Part shown: piece by piece, positions 11,450-18,332 of the stretch
Position numbering within the stretch: the stretch's first letter is position 1
Layout of the letters: each line of letters opens with the position of its first letter
Assembly: GCF_947495665.1 (NCBI RefSeq)
Contig: NZ_CANLZV010000001.1
Coordinates: 372,001 to 436,000 of the forward strand
DNA length: 64,000 nt
Source of the DNA: an uncultured Sunxiuqinia sp.
Lineage (GTDB): Bacteria; Bacteroidota; Bacteroidia; Bacteroidales; Prolixibacteraceae
Reading direction: 5' to 3'
Translations under genes and position numbers: made by a program
The notes under the pieces: model-generated
Told to the model about the DNA's origin: nothing
The model's database searches: none
Seen by the model: only the letters and a program-made list of their open reading frames with translations

Positions 11450-11848
11450 GGGGCTGACTGGTTTTGACAGCGGGTAGAAGAGGTATGTAAGCATGTCGAG
11501 CTTGGGTTGTTGGCTCGTTAATCCTAATGATCAAACTTTTAATTGGCGAAAACAATTACGCTCTTGCTGCGTAACCGAATCACAGTAGGTTAACCGCTTA
11601 ATCCCGGCACTAGGTGCTGGGACAAGACATCGCTCGGATGCTATTGCTTTGAGGCTATCCGATTCGGCGGTGCAAAAAATCGAGGCTAGTGGAATGTTTG
11701 CTTCGGACATGCCGCGAAACTTTAGAAGCTAAGGTAGTGGTCGGTGGCCTTGATCCTGCTACTACTCGAAAACCAAGTCGAGGCTAAACATGTAGAAAGC
11801 ATATGGCTTCCTCGTTTGGACCCGGGTTCGATTCCCGGCAGCTCCACC
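11450..11848 (+). ncRNA. ssrA: Transfer-messenger RNA (tmRNA)
   Basis: The 5' end GGGGCTGACTGG and 3' end ending CAGCTCCACC form the tRNA-like acceptor (GGGGCTG / CAGCTCC), with a T arm around GGTTCGATTCC. The tag reading frame runs from 11545 to 11574 and encodes GENNYALAA followed by TAA, a typical Bacteroidota tag ending in ALAA. The RNA rescues stalled ribosomes and marks the unfinished proteins for proteolysis, together with SmpB (not in the window). A terminator follows directly. Confidence 0.96.
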
Positions 11849-12155: not shown

Positions 12156-14372
12156 ATGAAATTTAAAGAAGGAATATGGACCAGTTCCATAGAGGTAAAG
12201 GATTTTGTTGCACGTAATATCACCCCTTATGCAGGCAATCATGACTTTTTGGTAGGCCCAACAGAGCGCACTTCCCATTTGTGGAACATCTGTAAAGCCG
12301 CCCTGAAAGAAGAGCGCGAAAGAAAAGGACTTCGCAGCGTTGATACAGAAAACGTATCAACCATGAATGCGTTTAAAGCCGGGTATATTGACAAGGAAAG
12401 TGAAGTCATTGTAGGTTTGCAGACTGATGAGTTGCTAAAACGTGCCATGAAACCTTATGGAGGATTCAAAGTGGTGCAAAAAGCTCTTTCTGAACATGGC
12501 TTTTCGCCAAGCGAGGTTATTACCGAAAGCTTCAGCAAATACACCAAAACGCATAACGATGGCGTATTTGATGCCTACACCGATGAAATCCGCAAGTTTC
12601 GTTCGCTGGGTTTCCTGACTGGTCTGCCTGACAACTATGCGCGTGGCCGGATTATTGGTGACTACCGACGCTTAGCACTATACGGGATCAACCGGCTGAT
12701 TGAAGCCAAAAAAGCTGATTTGGATGCGATTCATGGGCCAATGACCGATGCTACCATTCGTTTGCGCGAAGAGGTGTCGGAGCAAATCAAAGCATTGTAC
12801 GCTATGATTGAGATGGGGAAAATCTACGATCTTGATCTTAGCCGTCCGGCTGAAAATGCCCGAGAAGCTGTTCAGTGGACTTACATGGGCTACTTGGCTG
12901 CTGTGAAAGAGCAAGATGGTGCTGCCATGTCACTGGGAAGTGTATCCTCATTCCTGGATGTTTTTATTGAGAAAGACTTAACAGACGGTGTAATCACCGA
13001 AGAAGAAGCGCAAGAATACATTGACCAGTTTGTGATGAAACTGCGCATGGTGCGTCACCTGCGTATGGAAGCCTACGAACAGATTTTTGCCGGCGACCCC
13101 ACTTGGGTAACAGAATCAATTGGCGGACTTTTAATTGACGGACGCAGCAAGGTTACTAAAACCTCTTTCCGCTTCCTGAATACGCTATACAACCTGGGAC
13201 CATCACCAGAACCCAATATCACTATTTTGTGGTCTAAAAACCTGCCTCAGGGGTTCAAGGACTACTGTGCGAAAGTATCGATTGAAACGTCATCCATTCA
13301 GTATGAAAATGACGACTTGATGCGTACTAGCGCCAATTGTGACGATTACGGGATTGCTTGCTGCGTATCGATGCAGGAGCTTGGAAAGCACATCCAGTTT
13401 TTTGGGGCAAGAACCAACTTGGCCAAAACCCTGTTGCTGGCCATTAACCGTGGACAGTGTGAAAACACCGGAACTCAAATTGTGGATGGCATTCCAGCGC
13501 TGGAAAACGAATACCTGGATTACGACGAAGTGGTTGCCAACTTTAAAGTGGCGATGAAAGAAGTGGCCCGCGTGTACAACGAATCCATGAACATCATTCA
13601 CTACATGCACGATAAGTACTACTACGAAAAGGCGCAGATGGCCCTGATCGATACTAATCCGAAAATTAACATCGCATATGGTATTGCAGGTCTTTCAATT
13701 GTTGCCGATTCATTGTCAGCCATTAAACATGCCAAGGTAAAACCCATTCGCGATGAAAACGGATTGACTGTTGATTTCGAGATTGAAGGCGATTTTCCAA
13801 AATACGGAAACGATGACGACCGGGTGGACCATATTGCCCGCGACGTGGTGAGTCACTTCAACAAAGAATTGTCGCAACACAAAGTGTACAAAGATGCCAA
13901 TCCAACTTTGTCAGTTCTGACCATTACTTCAAACGTTGTTTATGGTTTGAAAACCGGAGCTACACCTGATGGACGTGGTAAAGGAGTGGCTTTTGCACCA
14001 GGTGCAAACCCAATGCACGGACGCGACACACACGGGGTAATTGCTTCGTTGAACTCGGTAGCCAAAATTGACTACAAAGATTCAAAAGATGGTATTTCGA
14101 ATACCTTGTCAGTCGTGCCTAAATCACTGGGATCAACTCCGGAAGACCGGATTGCCAACTTGGTACGCACGCTGGATGGTTACTTCGGATCGAATGCACA
14201 GCACCTGAACGTGAACGTTCTTGACCGTGAAACGTTGATCCACGCCATGGAGCACCCTGAGGAGCATCCTCAGCTGACCATCCGTGTGTCGGGATACGCC
14301 GTTAACTTTGTTCGCCTTACCCGCGAGCAGCAGCAAGAGGTGTTGACTCGTTCATTCCATGAGTCGCTATAG
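12156..14372 (+). CDS. pflB: Pyruvate formate-lyase (formate acetyltransferase)
   Basis: A 738-residue glycyl-radical enzyme, close to the 760 residues of the classic enzyme. It converts pyruvate and CoA to acetyl-CoA and formate in anaerobic energy metabolism, in the cytoplasm. The catalytic Cys pair is at residues 402-403 (GIACCVSMQ), and the glycyl-radical motif is RVSGYAVNF with Gly713 near the C-terminus. The activating enzyme gene and a formate channel gene follow on the same strand, completing the module. The radical form is oxygen-sensitive, so the organism should be anaerobic or facultative. Confidence 0.97.
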
Positions 14373-14400
14373 AAACGATTATTTGCATATAATTTACATT

Positions 14401-14446
14401 GAAGACATTCTGCCCCTGAAAAACGGGGGAGGGTGTCTTCTATTTT
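14401..14446 (+). terminator. Hairpin between pflB and pflA
   Basis: GAAGACA (14401-14407) pairs with TGTCTTC (14434-14440), with an inner pairing of CCCC / GGGG, followed by TATTTT. As pflA starts only 10 bp later, it is likely a partial terminator that lowers pflA/focA expression relative to pflB. Confidence 0.6.
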
Positions 14447-14455
14447 AATAGGACT

Positions 14456-15205
14456 ATGACCCAAGCTGAAAAAACACTCACTGTTCACTCCATCGAATCG
14501 TTTGGGACGCATGACGGCCCGGGCATCCGGCTCGTTGTTTTTTTACAGGGCTGCAACCTGCAGTGTTTGTATTGTCAAAATCCCGATACCATGGCCATGA
14601 AGGGCGGCACAACCACCGAGATTGAAGCCTTGGTGAAGCGGGCCCGCAACATGAAAACCTATTTTGGAGATGATGGTGGAGTCACTGTTTCGGGCGGCGA
14701 GCCCATGCTGCAGAGCAAAGCGCTCATTCCTTTTTTCGAGGCATTGAAAGCAGAAGGAATTCACACCAATATTGATACGAATGGTGTTGTTCGCACGCCG
14801 GAAGCGCTTCAGCTGATCTCCGGTCTTTCTGATCTGGTGATGTTCGATGTAAAATCGACCACCGACAAAGGGTTTAAAACACTTACAGGCGTTTCGCGCT
14901 TACAAGCCATGCTCAGTAACGTTAAGCTGCGTGAAGCGAGTCAGCTCCCGTTTTGGTTGCGCTATGTGCTGGTTCCGGGTTTTACCGATAAGGAACGAGA
15001 TTTGGAATGGCTGATTGAGCAATTTTCCGGCATGAACTTCCTGGAGCGGTTCGAAATTTTACCCTATCACAAGCTGGGGCAATACAAATGGGAAGCCTTG
15101 GGCATGGATTACCAGTTAATGGATGTGGCTGAAAATACGCCCGAACAATTGGAGATTGTAGAACAAAAACTCACCCCTTATTTCAAAAAAGTAATTATAA
15201 AATAA
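14456..15205 (+). CDS. pflA: Pyruvate formate-lyase-activating enzyme (radical SAM)
   Basis: A 249-residue radical-SAM protein. The cluster motif CNLQCLYC (Cys33, Cys37, Cys40; CX3CX2C) binds the 4Fe-4S cluster, and VSGGEP is the usual SAM-binding glycine motif. The start region SIESFGTHDGPGIR is typical of glycyl-radical activases. It cleaves S-adenosylmethionine and abstracts a hydrogen from Gly713 of the upstream PflB. The gene is 83 bp after pflB with a hairpin between, and 6 bp before the formate channel gene. Confidence 0.95.
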   Translation: MTQAEKTLTVHSIESFGTHDGPGIRLVVFLQGCNLQCLYCQNPDTMAMKGGTTTEIEALVKRARNMKTYFGDDGGVTVSGGEPMLQSKALIPFFEALKAEGIHTNIDTNGVVRTPEALQLISGLSDLVMFDVKSTTDKGFKTLTGVSRLQAMLSNVKLREASQLPFWLRYVLVPGFTDKERDLEWLIEQFSGMNFLERFEILPYHKLGQYKWEALGMDYQLMDVAENTPEQLEIVEQKLTPYFKKVIIK

Positions 15206-15211
15206 AAACCG

Positions 15212-15994
15212 ATGAGTTTATATTCACCCAAAGAAATCATCAAGGTTGCCGGGAAACTGGCTATAGATAAAGACGCTTATTCTGCAAAAAAAATACTGGT
15301 GCTTGCCTTTATGGCCGGTGCTTACATTTCCTTTGGCGGGCTGCTGGCTATTCTGATTGGCGGCGGTGTGCCCGGATTGGCTGCCGAAAACCCGGGAATT
15401 TCCAAATTTCTGATGGGGGCAGCTTTCCCCGTTGGGCTGATGATGGTGGTTATGGCCGGCGCCGAACTGTTTACCGGTAACAATGCTTACTTTATGCCCA
15501 ATGTGCTCAGTAAAAAACAACAATGGACGGCTCCTTTGCGCAATTGGGCTTTGGTTTATCTGGGCAACCTGATCGGATCGCTGTTTGTTGCTTACTTTCT
15601 GGTTCACTTGACCGATTTAGTGAGTGCTGCTCCTTGGAGCGAGGCCGTGCAAAACATTGCTATGGGAAAGACGGGTAACCCTTTTTACAAAACCTTTCTG
15701 AAAGGTATTGGCGCCAACTGGCTGGTGTGTTTGTCCTTGTGGATGGGCATGTCGGCTCAGCACACTTCCGGAAAGATTCTGGGGATTTGGTGGCCGGTGA
15801 TGGCTTTTGTAACTATGGGGTTTGAGCACTCCATTGCCAACATGTTTTTTATTCCGCTGGCCATTTTTGAAGGTGCCGACATCAGCTGGACGGCTTTTGT
15901 GGTTGAAAACCTGATTCCTGCAACCTTAGGGAATATTGTTGGGGGAGCCTTTTTCGTCGGAACCCTTTATTGGTACACCTACGCCCGCGACTGA
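15212..15994 (+). CDS. focA: Formate/nitrite transporter family channel
   Basis: A 260-residue inner-membrane protein with six hydrophobic segments, starting SLYSPKEIIKVAGKLAIDK. The motif AGAELFTGNN at about residue 87 is the family hallmark in the first half. The family forms pentameric channels for small anions such as formate, nitrite or hydrosulfide. Being 6 bp behind pflA and in one transcript with pflB strongly favours formate export or re-uptake. In enterobacteria focA precedes pflB, so the order here is different. A strong terminator follows. Confidence 0.88.
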   Translation: MSLYSPKEIIKVAGKLAIDKDAYSAKKILVLAFMAGAYISFGGLLAILIGGGVPGLAAENPGISKFLMGAAFPVGLMMVVMAGAELFTGNNAYFMPNVLSKKQQWTAPLRNWALVYLGNLIGSLFVAYFLVHLTDLVSAAPWSEAVQNIAMGKTGNPFYKTFLKGIGANWLVCLSLWMGMSAQHTSGKILGIWWPVMAFVTMGFEHSIANMFFIPLAIFEGADISWTAFVVENLIPATLGNIVGGAFFVGTLYWYTYARD

Positions 15995-16166: not shown

Positions 16167-16505
16167 CTACAGCTCGGTGTATTTCTTGGAAGTTCCCCGG
16201 GCTTTTTCTACCGGGTATTTGGCTGCATTTTTCCGGATTTTGTCTAATACGATTTCAAAGACATCCAGCTCATGTTTTTCGGCTAATAAAAAGGCATAAG
16301 CCAAAACATCGGCAAGCTCTTCCTTCAGCTTTTCCTGGTTTACATCGGTGAGCTCATGCTCTTTCTTCCACAGAAATAATTCATTCAACTCTGCAGCTTC
16401 AATGGATAGGGCCAAAGCTAAATTCTTTGAATCGTGAAACTGTTGCCAGTTTCGTTCATCCCTGAATTCAATCAGTTTTTCGATCACTTTTTGATAATCA
16501 CTCAT
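16167..16505 (-). CDS. MazG-like nucleotide pyrophosphohydrolase
   Basis: A 112-residue all-alpha protein. The metal-binding motifs EAAEL and EELADVLAY match the MazG / RS21-C6 (dCTPase) superfamily. Such enzymes hydrolyse non-canonical or surplus (d)NTPs to monophosphates and pyrophosphate, cleaning the nucleotide pool. I chose the ATG at 16505 (MSDYQKVIEKL), where similarity to the family begins; an upstream ATG at 16538 would add 11 unlikely residues. It is a single-gene unit, convergent with focA. Its upstream region is the unusual repeat array. Confidence 0.85.
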   Translation of the reverse strand: MSDYQKVIEKLIEFRDERNWQQFHDSKNLALALSIEAAELNELFLWKKEHELTDVNQEKLKEELADVLAYAFLLAEKHELDVFEIVLDKIRKNAAKYPVEKARGTSKKYTEL

Positions 16506-16577
16506 AATTTCAGTCAAAATTCTCTCGAAAATAAACATATCGGCTGAATTTTGGTTGATTTTTTTCTTTTTCCAATG

Positions 16578-16820
16578 CTTCCTGCTACTTTTTCATCCAT
16601 CCTGCGCGATTGGCAGTCGTCCTGTATGCTTGCAACTCGTCCTGTTACCCCTGAGGCCTTCCAGTTAAAGAATTTTAACTTCCTGTTCAACAGGAAGCCT
16701 GTAAGACCATGCTGGGAGTTAATATTCCGTTACTGGGCGCCTTAAAAGCTTACAGGGGCCACAAAAAAGCAACTGGGACGCTAGATTCTTAACAGGGAGC
16801 CATCGAAAAGTGACAGGGCC
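16578..16820. repeat. Two-sided array of degenerate 20-21 bp repeats around a palindrome
   Basis: The intergenic region 16506-16850 has no gene. On its left side a C(T/A/G)TCC(T/A)G core recurs at 16578, 16598, 16618, 16638, 16658 and 16679, a period of 20 bp. On the right side the inverse core C(A/T)GG recurs at 16691, 16712, 16733, 16753, 16773, 16793 and 16814, a period of 20-21 bp. The two halves meet in the perfect palindrome CTTCCTGTT-C-AACAGGAAG (16679-16697). Sequence between cores is variable but often contains AAAAG on the right side. The cores would lie on one face of the helix, two turns apart. Function is unknown. Confidence 0.7.
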
Positions 16821-16850
16821 AGTAAAAAGGGCCTGTGTCCAACTAATAAT

Positions 16851-18332
16851 CTAAATGGCTTTTGGAGTGGGGGCTACTTTTAAACACTCATAAACCAGGT
16901 TCATCGATTCGCGGTCGTCGGCCAGTACAACCAGCCGGTCTCCGGACTCAATAATGGTTGATCCGTTAGGCGTGAGGTATTCCTTTCCGCGGTTAATCAT
17001 GGCGATCAGTGCAGTGCGGGGAAAGTGCAGATCAACAATTTTTTCTCCAGCAACTGAGCCGTCTTCGGGAATAATAATTTCGGTGCGTACCTTTTTGATC
17101 TCTTCAGAAAGGAAAGTTTCCTGGGCCATTTGTGGAATGGCCAGCTCAGGAGCCGATACGCGCAGCCAGCGGGCAATGGTATTTAGTGTGGTACCTTGCA
17201 CCAGCACCGAGGTGAGTGAAATAAAGAACACAATGTTGAAAATCATATTGGCCTTTTCAATGCCTGCCAGCAGCGGGTAGGTGGCAAACACGATGGGGAC
17301 AGCGCCTCGCAGCCCAACCCACGAAATGTACAGGCGCTGCTTCATTTTCATTTTGAAAGGTGTGAGGGCTACCATCACGCTTAAAGGTCGGGCGATAAAG
17401 ATTAAGAAAAGCGAGATGAGCAGTCCGATTCCAATGACGGGCAAAATGTGCGACGGAAAAACAAGCAAGCCCAGCGTGAGGAACAACACGATTTGCATGA
17501 GCCAGGCCAAGCTGTCGAACATTTTAACAATGGTTGCTTTGTGAATAAAGTCCTGGTTGGCCAGAAACACGGCACAAATATAGATGGCAAGGAACCCGTT
17601 TCCGCCAATAAAATCGGTGGCCGAGAAGGTGATAAACATCAGGGCAATGACCAGAACCGGGTAGAGGCCTTCGTAAGTCAGCTGAATTTTGTTGACGATG
17701 TATTTGGTGAGCTTGCCAAACAGCAGGCCGGCCAGTGCGCCAAGCAGCATTTGCTGCAGAAACAGCGGGATGATGGATAAAAGGCTTTGTTCGGGGGTAA
17801 CGACCAGACTTAAAAAAGCAATGGTTAGCACATAAGCCATCGGGTCGTTACTTCCGCTCTCCAGCTCAAGAGTGGGTTTTAGCTGGCTTTTAAGGCCAAT
17901 GTTTTTGGCCCTCAAAATGGAAAACACAGCCGCCGCATCGGTTGATGAAACAATGGCGCCCAATAGCAAGCCTTCGTAAAGGCTGAAATCCGTGAGCCAC
18001 CACACAAAAAGGCCCAGGCTAACTGCCGTAAGCAAAACGCCCAGGGTTGAGAGCGATATTCCTTGCCAAAGCACAGGTTTAATCGACCGCCAGTTGGTGT
18101 CGAGTCCACCGGAAAACAAAATGAAGTTGAGGGAAACTACTCCTATAAACTGCGCGAGCTGCGGATTGTCGAAATGAATGCGGCCAATGCCTTCGGATCC
18201 GGCAAGCATTCCCACAAAAAGGAATAAAACCAAGGTCGGAATTCCAAAGCGGTGCGAGGTTTTACCAATAAGGATACTAATAAATAGCAGTAGTGAACCA
18301 ACAAGTAAAATGTTTTCAATGGTTAGACTCAT
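16851..18332 (-). CDS. CPA1-family cation/proton antiporter with C-terminal RCK_C domain (NhaP2/CvrA-like)
   Basis: A 493-residue inner-membrane protein. About twelve hydrophobic segments in residues 5-385 form the Na+/H+ exchanger domain, including the motif SSTDAAAVFSIL (about 130) and the LESGSNDPMAYVLT segment with the paired acidic residues needed for transport. The last 80 residues (IIPEDGSVAGEKIVDL to VVLADD) are a TrkA-C/RCK_C ligand-binding domain. Proteins of this layout export K+ or Na+ in exchange for protons and help with osmotic or pH adaptation, consistent with a marine habitat. It is a single-gene unit, separated by 267 bp from the regulator upstream on the same strand. Confidence 0.88.
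   Translation of the reverse strand: MSLTIENILLVGSLLLFISILIGKTSHRFGIPTLVLFLFVGMLAGSEGIGRIHFDNPQLAQFIGVVSLNFILFSGGLDTNWRSIKPVLWQGISLSTLGVLLTAVSLGLFVWWLTDFSLYEGLLLGAIVSSTDAAAVFSILRAKNIGLKSQLKPTLELESGSNDPMAYVLTIAFLSLVVTPEQSLLSIIPLFLQQMLLGALAGLLFGKLTKYIVNKIQLTYEGLYPVLVIALMFITFSATDFIGGNGFLAIYICAVFLANQDFIHKATIVKMFDSLAWLMQIVLFLTLGLLVFPSHILPVIGIGLLISLFLIFIARPLSVMVALTPFKMKMKQRLYISWVGLRGAVPIVFATYPLLAGIEKANMIFNIVFFISLTSVLVQGTTLNTIARWLRVSAPELAIPQMAQETFLSEEIKKVRTEIIIPEDGSVAGEKIVDLHFPRTALIAMINRGKEYLTPNGSTIIESGDRLVVLADDRESMNLVYECLKVAPTPKAI

Follow-up and report, generated by a model that had tools for sequence, protein, structure and literature searches.

The DNA analysed here, referred to as the window, is a stretch of 64,000 nucleotides from an uncultured Sunxiuqinia sp. 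Between a MazG-like gene and a potassium/proton antiporter gene, this window carries thirteen short CCWG cores, arranged as two back-to-back arms that meet at a palindrome. The region is laid out as follows, each core being given by its first base:

16167..16538, minus strand: MazG-like gene (PF12643), a neighbour outside the element, whose orthologue in genome G006 also has an array upstream.
16581..16681, plus strand: left arm, five CCWG units (16581, 16601, 16621, 16641, 16661) pointing to the centre in 20-21 bp steps; profile R2 (see below) matches at C1:388615-388687, which is window 16615-16687.
16679..16697, no strand: central palindrome CTTCCTGTTCAACAGGAAG, holding the two innermost cores, 16682 (plus) and 16694 (minus), with 5 nt separating CCTG from CAGG.
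16698..16817, minus strand: right arm, six more units (16715, 16736, 16756, 16776, 16796, 16817) in 20-21 bp steps; R2 matches on the minus strand at C1:388688-388779 and 388762-388829.
16851..18332, minus strand: potassium/proton antiporter gene, a neighbour only.

This layout confirmed the observation behind the original prediction, which had described thirteen cores at 20-21 bp from each other, six in one orientation and seven in the opposite one: every step between neighbouring CCWG cores is indeed 20 or 21 bp. Some details needed correction. Specifically, the cores had been called CCTG/CAGG-type, which holds for nine of the thirteen, the other four reading CCAG/CTGG; the 19-bp palindrome, described as perfect, is so except for its middle base; and the array, placed at 16578-16820, has cores that themselves span 16581 to 16817. 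A chain finder run on both strands yielded core chains of 6 and 7, with a longest chain of 4 (found once) in 10,000 dinucleotide shuffles of 16539-16850, and a both-strand chain sum of 13 versus a best of 6 (found twice) in 10,000 such shuffles. The 20-bp periodicity, for which a comparison with shuffled sequence had been proposed, was far above chance as well, with 119 of 292 positions identical at lag 20, a value not attained in 3,000 shuffles when all lags between 6 and 60 were considered. As had also been claimed, the array encodes no convincing protein, the single ORF of at least 60 aa that overlaps it being a 64-aa frame.

Neither the profile search nor a core-free detector found a second array in the 64-kb window, and Rfam at gathering scores reported tmRNA and tRNA only. 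The tmRNA gene occupies window 11450-11848 (tag GENNYALAA), and a formate cluster lies at window 12156-15994, comprising a formate/nitrite transporter recognised by Pfam and genes that we take to encode pyruvate formate-lyase and its activator.

Among the six further genomes of the genus, a single one, G006, matches the MazG-like gene at E 1e-10, and it carries an array in the same position upstream of this orthologue. Because G006 keeps its array beside another gene at the antiporter's place (presumably an AraC-like one), the antiporter is not needed for the array. The MazG-like gene was in turn rejected as a partner: among the best 80 of 286 MazG-like loci in named genomes, 78 had no chain of three cores, and the other two had a chain of four cores inside an ORF (L071) and one of three cores that lacks the layout (L082). 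An adjacent replication initiator gene, as expected of an iteron origin, was not seen either, since the linked protein family described below and the four window neighbours scanned gave no Rep-like Pfam match. With no replication protein found linked, the earlier suggestion of a replication-related or iteron-like site gained no support.

The window array is a member of a family of many arrays in related bacteria. A sequence-only profile built from three half arrays (R1) located further back-to-back arrays within the genus; at E ≤0.01 it had matches in 29 genomes, the own one included, out of 100 from the taxonomic family. A second profile (R2), assembled from 24 half arrays, was run on 20 chosen genomes, 16 of which gave a match at E 0.05. 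With stricter filters and at E 1e-4, R2 matched just two of 296 genomes in a sample of the phylum, these being the own genome and G138; the G138 match is an ordinary tandem repeat of 21 bp that does not show the layout. The search for other arrays and a linked gene that had been advised thus returned both, and the possibility that the stretch might be single-copy and non-conserved was refuted by its preservation in a sister species and its relatives elsewhere.

The geometry of these arrays was examined at 50 loci. Among 486 distances to the next core (up to 70 bp), 250 were 20 bp and 167 were 21 bp, together 417, although these counts lean towards 20/21 because the loci had been found with profiles of that spacing; the others comprised 35 steps of two or three units, three of 19 bp, one of 22 bp and 30 of other lengths. 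Plus and minus cores stood 9 bp apart, corresponding to the 5-nt centre gap, in 42 core pairs over the 50 loci, and the exact 5-nt centre was present in 21 of 24 loci with both arms called (40 loci looked at) as well as in five arrays of the CGAG type. Read towards the centre, the unit consensus was approximately NCGYCCTGYWR-NN-TTTTT-NGNC (219 units from 28 loci), in line with spacers that are T-rich in the CCTG arrays. Based on ORFs of at least 90 aa, called independently of annotation, 25 of the 50 loci lay between tandem, 20 between convergent and five between divergent ORFs, and the context was convergent in 14 of the 41 loci without the linked gene. In some arrays (L222, L220, L254, L229, L267, L122 and L183) two kinds of spacer alternate; every second unit is therefore more similar than the adjacent one, and a higher period of 41 bp arises. 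Two one-sided CCTG arrays (L142 and L154) apparently end, by eye, in a terminator-like hairpin with no second arm.

Several arrays occupy the same place in different species, and one does so across genera; two of these kept sites lie upstream of genes that we take to be valS and ileS. Seven kept sites, represented by two to five genomes each, were compared base by base. Core bases were identical in 93.8% of 2,726 comparisons, a figure that the motif-based choice of cores favours, versus 68.8% of 10,612 for spacer bases and 65.8% of 21,776 for flank bases. The site of the window array itself was less well kept (cores 79%, spacers 55% and flanks 55% identical), and at the L121/L124 site the order was reversed (cores 41%, spacers 47%, flanks 57%), because the core type had changed there. 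The closest pairs among 50 arrays, up to 92% identical, were the same site in two species, and no within-genome pair exceeded 79% identity over at least 100 bp. Ten genomes were followed at the ileS site: entire units have disappeared from G051 and G105, another four fail to align, and none showed a clean empty site. These comparisons indicate that array sites are inherited in place and not freshly scattered. At one array, L161 (G098:C1 4104250-4106000), an insertion sequence with a presumably IS4-like transposase sits within the central palindrome, flanked by an apparent 9-bp duplication; this single case may be a coincidence or reflect a preference for palindromes.

Nine of the 50 loci adjoin one homologous gene of approximately 250 codons, the stop codon of which lies 0-93 bp from the array. 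A protein search at E 0.001 found this gene in 30 of the same 100 genomes, so that 29 genomes had arrays, 30 had the gene and 22 had both (Fisher p 6e-10, kinship ignored). Arrays without a gene match were left in seven of the 29 genomes, and the gene without an array in eight of the 30 at the first threshold; among these eight, G001, G003, G059 and G102 do match R2 at E 0.05, and G004 and G051 do not. We also started from the gene, taking 90 distinct copies (13 of them in G474 and G576) and scoring the 400 bp past the stop codon as positive if no shuffle of 100 equalled the array. A 3′ array with 20-21 bp spacing was present in 55 of 89 testable genes, versus two of 88 on the 5′ side, and 34 of the 89 had no significant 3′ array. 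At least three of the 55 positives (L207, L246 and L261) depend on cores composed of A and T alone. Of the 21 genes from beyond the taxonomic family, five had a 3′ array and 16 had no significant one; the five are spread over four other families of the order. When 49 of the 3′ arrays were examined further, two opposed arms were detected in 21, and in six of those 21 the first core began 6 bp after the stop codon. Taken together, a module of gene plus array is well supported.

Some genomes hold many copies of the gene, with 10 matches in G087, and both linked and solo CCTG arrays occur in G072, G098, G114 and G006. The family is strongly multiplied in G474 and G576, with nine and five matches, respectively; none of the 13 family genes tested in these two genomes had a significant 3′ array. 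Across the phylum, a protein profile matched two of 198 genomes, namely the own genome and G283, the latter with a fragment containing stops. One family member was searched against plasmids without a match, and neither this family nor the sister family NF052641 (see below), each represented by one member, had a relative in viral contigs.

Because arrays lie behind a terminator-like hairpin that separates gene from array in the L250 module, and between convergent genes at 20 of the 50 loci, they are not simply part of one mRNA. This bears on the possibility that the array acts as RNA, giving a transcript whose repeats the linked protein binds or processes, much as in TIGR-Tas guide arrays or an RNA sponge. 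The order of gene and array, with repeats constant within a locus and variable between loci, resembles that of TIGR arrays as described in PMC12045711, and the alternating spacers with a 41-bp period in L222, L220 and L254 would suit this reading as well. Against it stand the opposite direction of the two arms, the convergent and post-terminator positions just mentioned, the T-rich spacers of CCTG arrays, which drift about like the flanks and so behave unlike guides, a unit of 20/21 and not 36, and the absence of a Nop domain by sequence. Moreover, folding z-scores were –1.9 and –2.2 for the two strands of the window array and –0.9 for its G006 counterpart, and the spacers of the two arms of L123 do not pair by eye. 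We therefore consider an RNA role unlikely.

The linked protein has approximately 245 aa and is mostly acidic (median pI 4.9), with a median net charge of +5 over its last 40 residues; from its sequence it looks helical. Pfam searches of 28 members gave no convincing match, only two chance-level matches to single members, with no DNA-binding domain recognised and no Y1/HUH transposase, Nop or ribbon-helix-helix domain among the matches. A profile search of the PDB returned one match at E 0.055 and likewise no Nop domain. Because of this lack of a recognised DNA-binding domain, binding of the protein to the array is something that we infer.

The protein does have a relative in NCBIfam. At E ≤0.01, 20 of 28 members matched NF052641 (PQLLE family; best 3.5e-8), and a profile-profile comparison gave a probability of 95.5%; the curated cut-off of 80 bits was not reached by the members for which scores are shown (18.4 bits for member 1 and 27.8 bits for the own-genome gene on G000:C15). 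The NF052641 model, which carries no function statement, matched in 10 of 119 genomes of the order, in eight of them above its cut-off, and G474 alone has 23 matches. From 30 NF052641 loci taken, of which 26 had a usable ORF, eight of the 26 showed a significant array of approximately 21 bp upstream (three with A/T-only cores), and two of 23 showed one downstream, one of these two being a member of the first family. The own genome provides an example on G000:C13, where eight AGGA cores precede the gene at 21 bp apart on average. NF052641 thus appears as a distant homologue in which arrays of similar spacing lie upstream of the gene, whereas those of the family studied here lie behind the stop codon; in nine regions that we read, the upstream arrays looked one-directional.

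Array cores are 4-7 bp long and differ among members of the family (CCTGT, CCTGC, CTCG/CGAG, GGAA, GGGAG, GCGGA, TAGGA, GTGAT, CCAC and others). When core labels, assigned by a simple rule, were placed on a tree of 55 proteins, they clustered, requiring 29 changes versus a shuffled mean of 36.9 (none of 200 shuffles was as low), and they also switched between close relatives. Such switching could be followed in seven close modules with alignable flanking DNA, in which the arrays are in register and display five core types, including TAGGA, GGGAG, GCGGA and GTGAT, while the proteins are 72-90% identical (81-90% for six of them). Because these modules come from six genomes, with two of them 26 kb apart in G111, they represent one clade and not one locus. 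By eye, their cores differ while the inner spacers are partly shared, suggesting that cores within an array switch jointly, the units themselves not being replaced, and pointing to recognition of the core in trans and not to copying of whole units. The outermost unit of the 3′ array reads GCGGA, again by eye, in six of the seven (L219, L220, L248, L250, L257 and L259); the inner units carry another core in five of those six, as if the core change spreads from the centre. The proteins of L250 and L257 differ in 33 columns, and the TAGGA and GGGAG pairs are told apart by five columns, of which four fall in the tail, with no clear lead to specificity residues.

The fifth base of CCTG arrays, which is nearly uniform within each array, can be T in one array and C in another of the same genome, as in L181 (17/17 T) and L185 (12/12 C). 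From this comparison we conclude that the core characterises the array, and we reject the idea that it characterises the genome. A single protein in each genome would not account for the pattern, unless paralogues were lost.

Core agreement in both arms without spacer agreement, together with the private character of each array, might alternatively arise if the arms paired with each other as a hairpin or cruciform, with mismatch repair keeping the cores alike and no partner protein being needed for the pattern. Yet uniform cores were also seen by eye in one-armed arrays (L209 and L235, and L300 and L302 of NF052641), hairpin loops need no strict 20/21 spacing and the linkage to the gene would be left unexplained, making such self-pairing rather improbable.

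The own genome contains three family members with open frames, at C1:133 kb, C1:566 kb and C15:92 kb. The C15 member has a 4+4 array of GCAG-type cores starting at its stop codon, and no 3′ array of the two C1 members passed a shuffle test. The own-genome member closest to the CCTG-type query (58% versus 36-42%) survives as a remnant close to the C16 contig end; it is interrupted by a central gap and by stop codons, and the remaining ~200 bp hold no array. Because this gene, the nearest to the CCTG type, is broken, the window array and a second array on C7 look like orphans, unless they are served by something else. The module has two parts, and the window array probably represents a copy of its DNA part, left as an orphan.

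The dead state of this gene, the losses of whole units at the ileS site and the less well kept cores (79%) at the window's own site would all suit a function-less relic of expanded repeats that is now decaying, which is the role-less version of an origin raised in the original prediction. This version is disfavoured by the conservation of cores, evident at the majority of the seven kept sites; the fixed centre gap and the 3′ linkage to one gene family, also beyond the taxonomic family, argue against it as well, and we regard it as very improbable.

Orphan-looking arrays after gene decay are also what a selfish repeat would leave behind, if it were dispersed by the linked protein in the manner of REP/RAYT, with gene plus array as the autonomous and solo arrays as the non-autonomous form. 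Solo arrays between genes, gene-linked copies, a private repeat per paralogue and the many paralogues in some genomes (10 in G087, and the NF052641 matches of G474) agree with such an element. It is difficult to reconcile with the lack of a transposase domain by Pfam, the position of the array on one side of the gene, the missing recent copies among the 50 arrays, where the closest pairs are the same site across species, and the lack of a clean empty ileS site in ten genomes. On balance, this reading appears somewhat unlikely.

The explanation that we favour, with a probability of roughly 45%, is that the linked protein, or an assembly made from it, recognises the cores and builds a filament or wrap outward from the palindrome, the arrays being its sites. 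Two observations suggest that the core is read by this protein: its gene adjoins the array, and core types cluster on the protein tree. The arrays moreover meet the needs of a phased binding site, as they have a palindromic start, a two-turn spacing, conserved cores and freer spacers, and in our view these features together with the link between protein and core point to growth outward from the palindrome. The module consists of a gene for a mostly acidic protein with a basic tail and, in many cases behind its stop codon, that gene's own array, with gene-less copies of the array elsewhere in the chromosome being inherited in place. A pair of subunits of the core-recognising protein or assembly would begin on the central palindrome, presumably bound as double-stranded DNA, after which further subunits would add outward in both directions, one per two helical turns and on one face of the DNA, yielding a bidirectional nucleoprotein filament or wrap. 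This scheme keeps one part of the original prediction, a DNA-binding protein that forms multimers along one face of the helix; the 20/21 spacing, the fixed centre and the existence of a partner gene family fit it, with binding itself as the inferred part. Regulation, chromosome organisation and self-maintenance of the module are candidates for the benefit to the cell.

An unannotated and often multi-copy protein family is hereby tied to its own non-coding DNA partner, which offers a direct handle on its function. In addition, the change of core across whole arrays between close modules amounts to a natural experiment on the way in which a putative binder and its dozen or so sites could switch jointly. 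If the protein does assemble on the array, this would be a new kind of site-specific bacterial nucleoprotein filament. For this protein family and layout the partner link is new, and no paper on either was found in the open-access literature among the matches listed; TAACTGA direct repeats in Beggiatoaceae are reportedly the subject of one paper.

The organisation of the module is like that of REP/RAYT, TIGR-Tas or ParR-parC, yet at least one defining feature of each is missing. RAYT genes have REPs on either side and code for a transposase of the IS200/IS605 type (PMC2817692). The likeness lies in intergenic repeats that are cognate to a gene and diverge together with it, and in further solo repeats elsewhere in the genome. 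Solo cognate copies do occur here (G072, G098, G114 and G006), but the Y1/HUH transposase domain is absent from the 28 members searched with Pfam, and the repeats lie downstream of the gene (55/89) and hardly ever upstream (2/88). In contrast to REPs, the arrays lie on the 3′ side, are phased at 20-21 bp with a palindromic centre, and few copies were found per genome. TIGR-Tas (PMC12045711) combines a Nop-domain protein with 36-nt units that are made into guide RNAs, and it shares with our modules a single protein gene next to an array, the repeats of which stay the same in one locus and vary from locus to locus. The arrays here differ by their 20-21-bp units, with the 41-bp alternation in some arrays only, by their two opposed arms and, at the level of sequence comparison with Pfam and PDB profiles, by a protein that does not match Nop. 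Plasmid centromeres of the ParR-parC type, such as that of pSK41, have 20-bp repeats beside the gene of their binder, with family-specific sequences and cooperative binding, and ParR, typically a ribbon-helix-helix protein, works with a ParM filament on plasmids (PMC9426499). Short direct repeats beside a gene fit this layout, with binding by the gene product remaining putative in our case; the linked protein has no ribbon-helix-helix match in Pfam, and the arrays are located in genomes, the one member searched having no match among plasmids. Set against these systems, we tentatively propose, somewhat short of an even chance, that the family described here and NF052641 form a superfamily with private, phased 20-21-bp arrays, and thereby an undescribed chromosomal two-part system, in which a palindrome-started bidirectional filament would form, cores would switch in concert as the protein diverges and satellite arrays would be read by the same protein.
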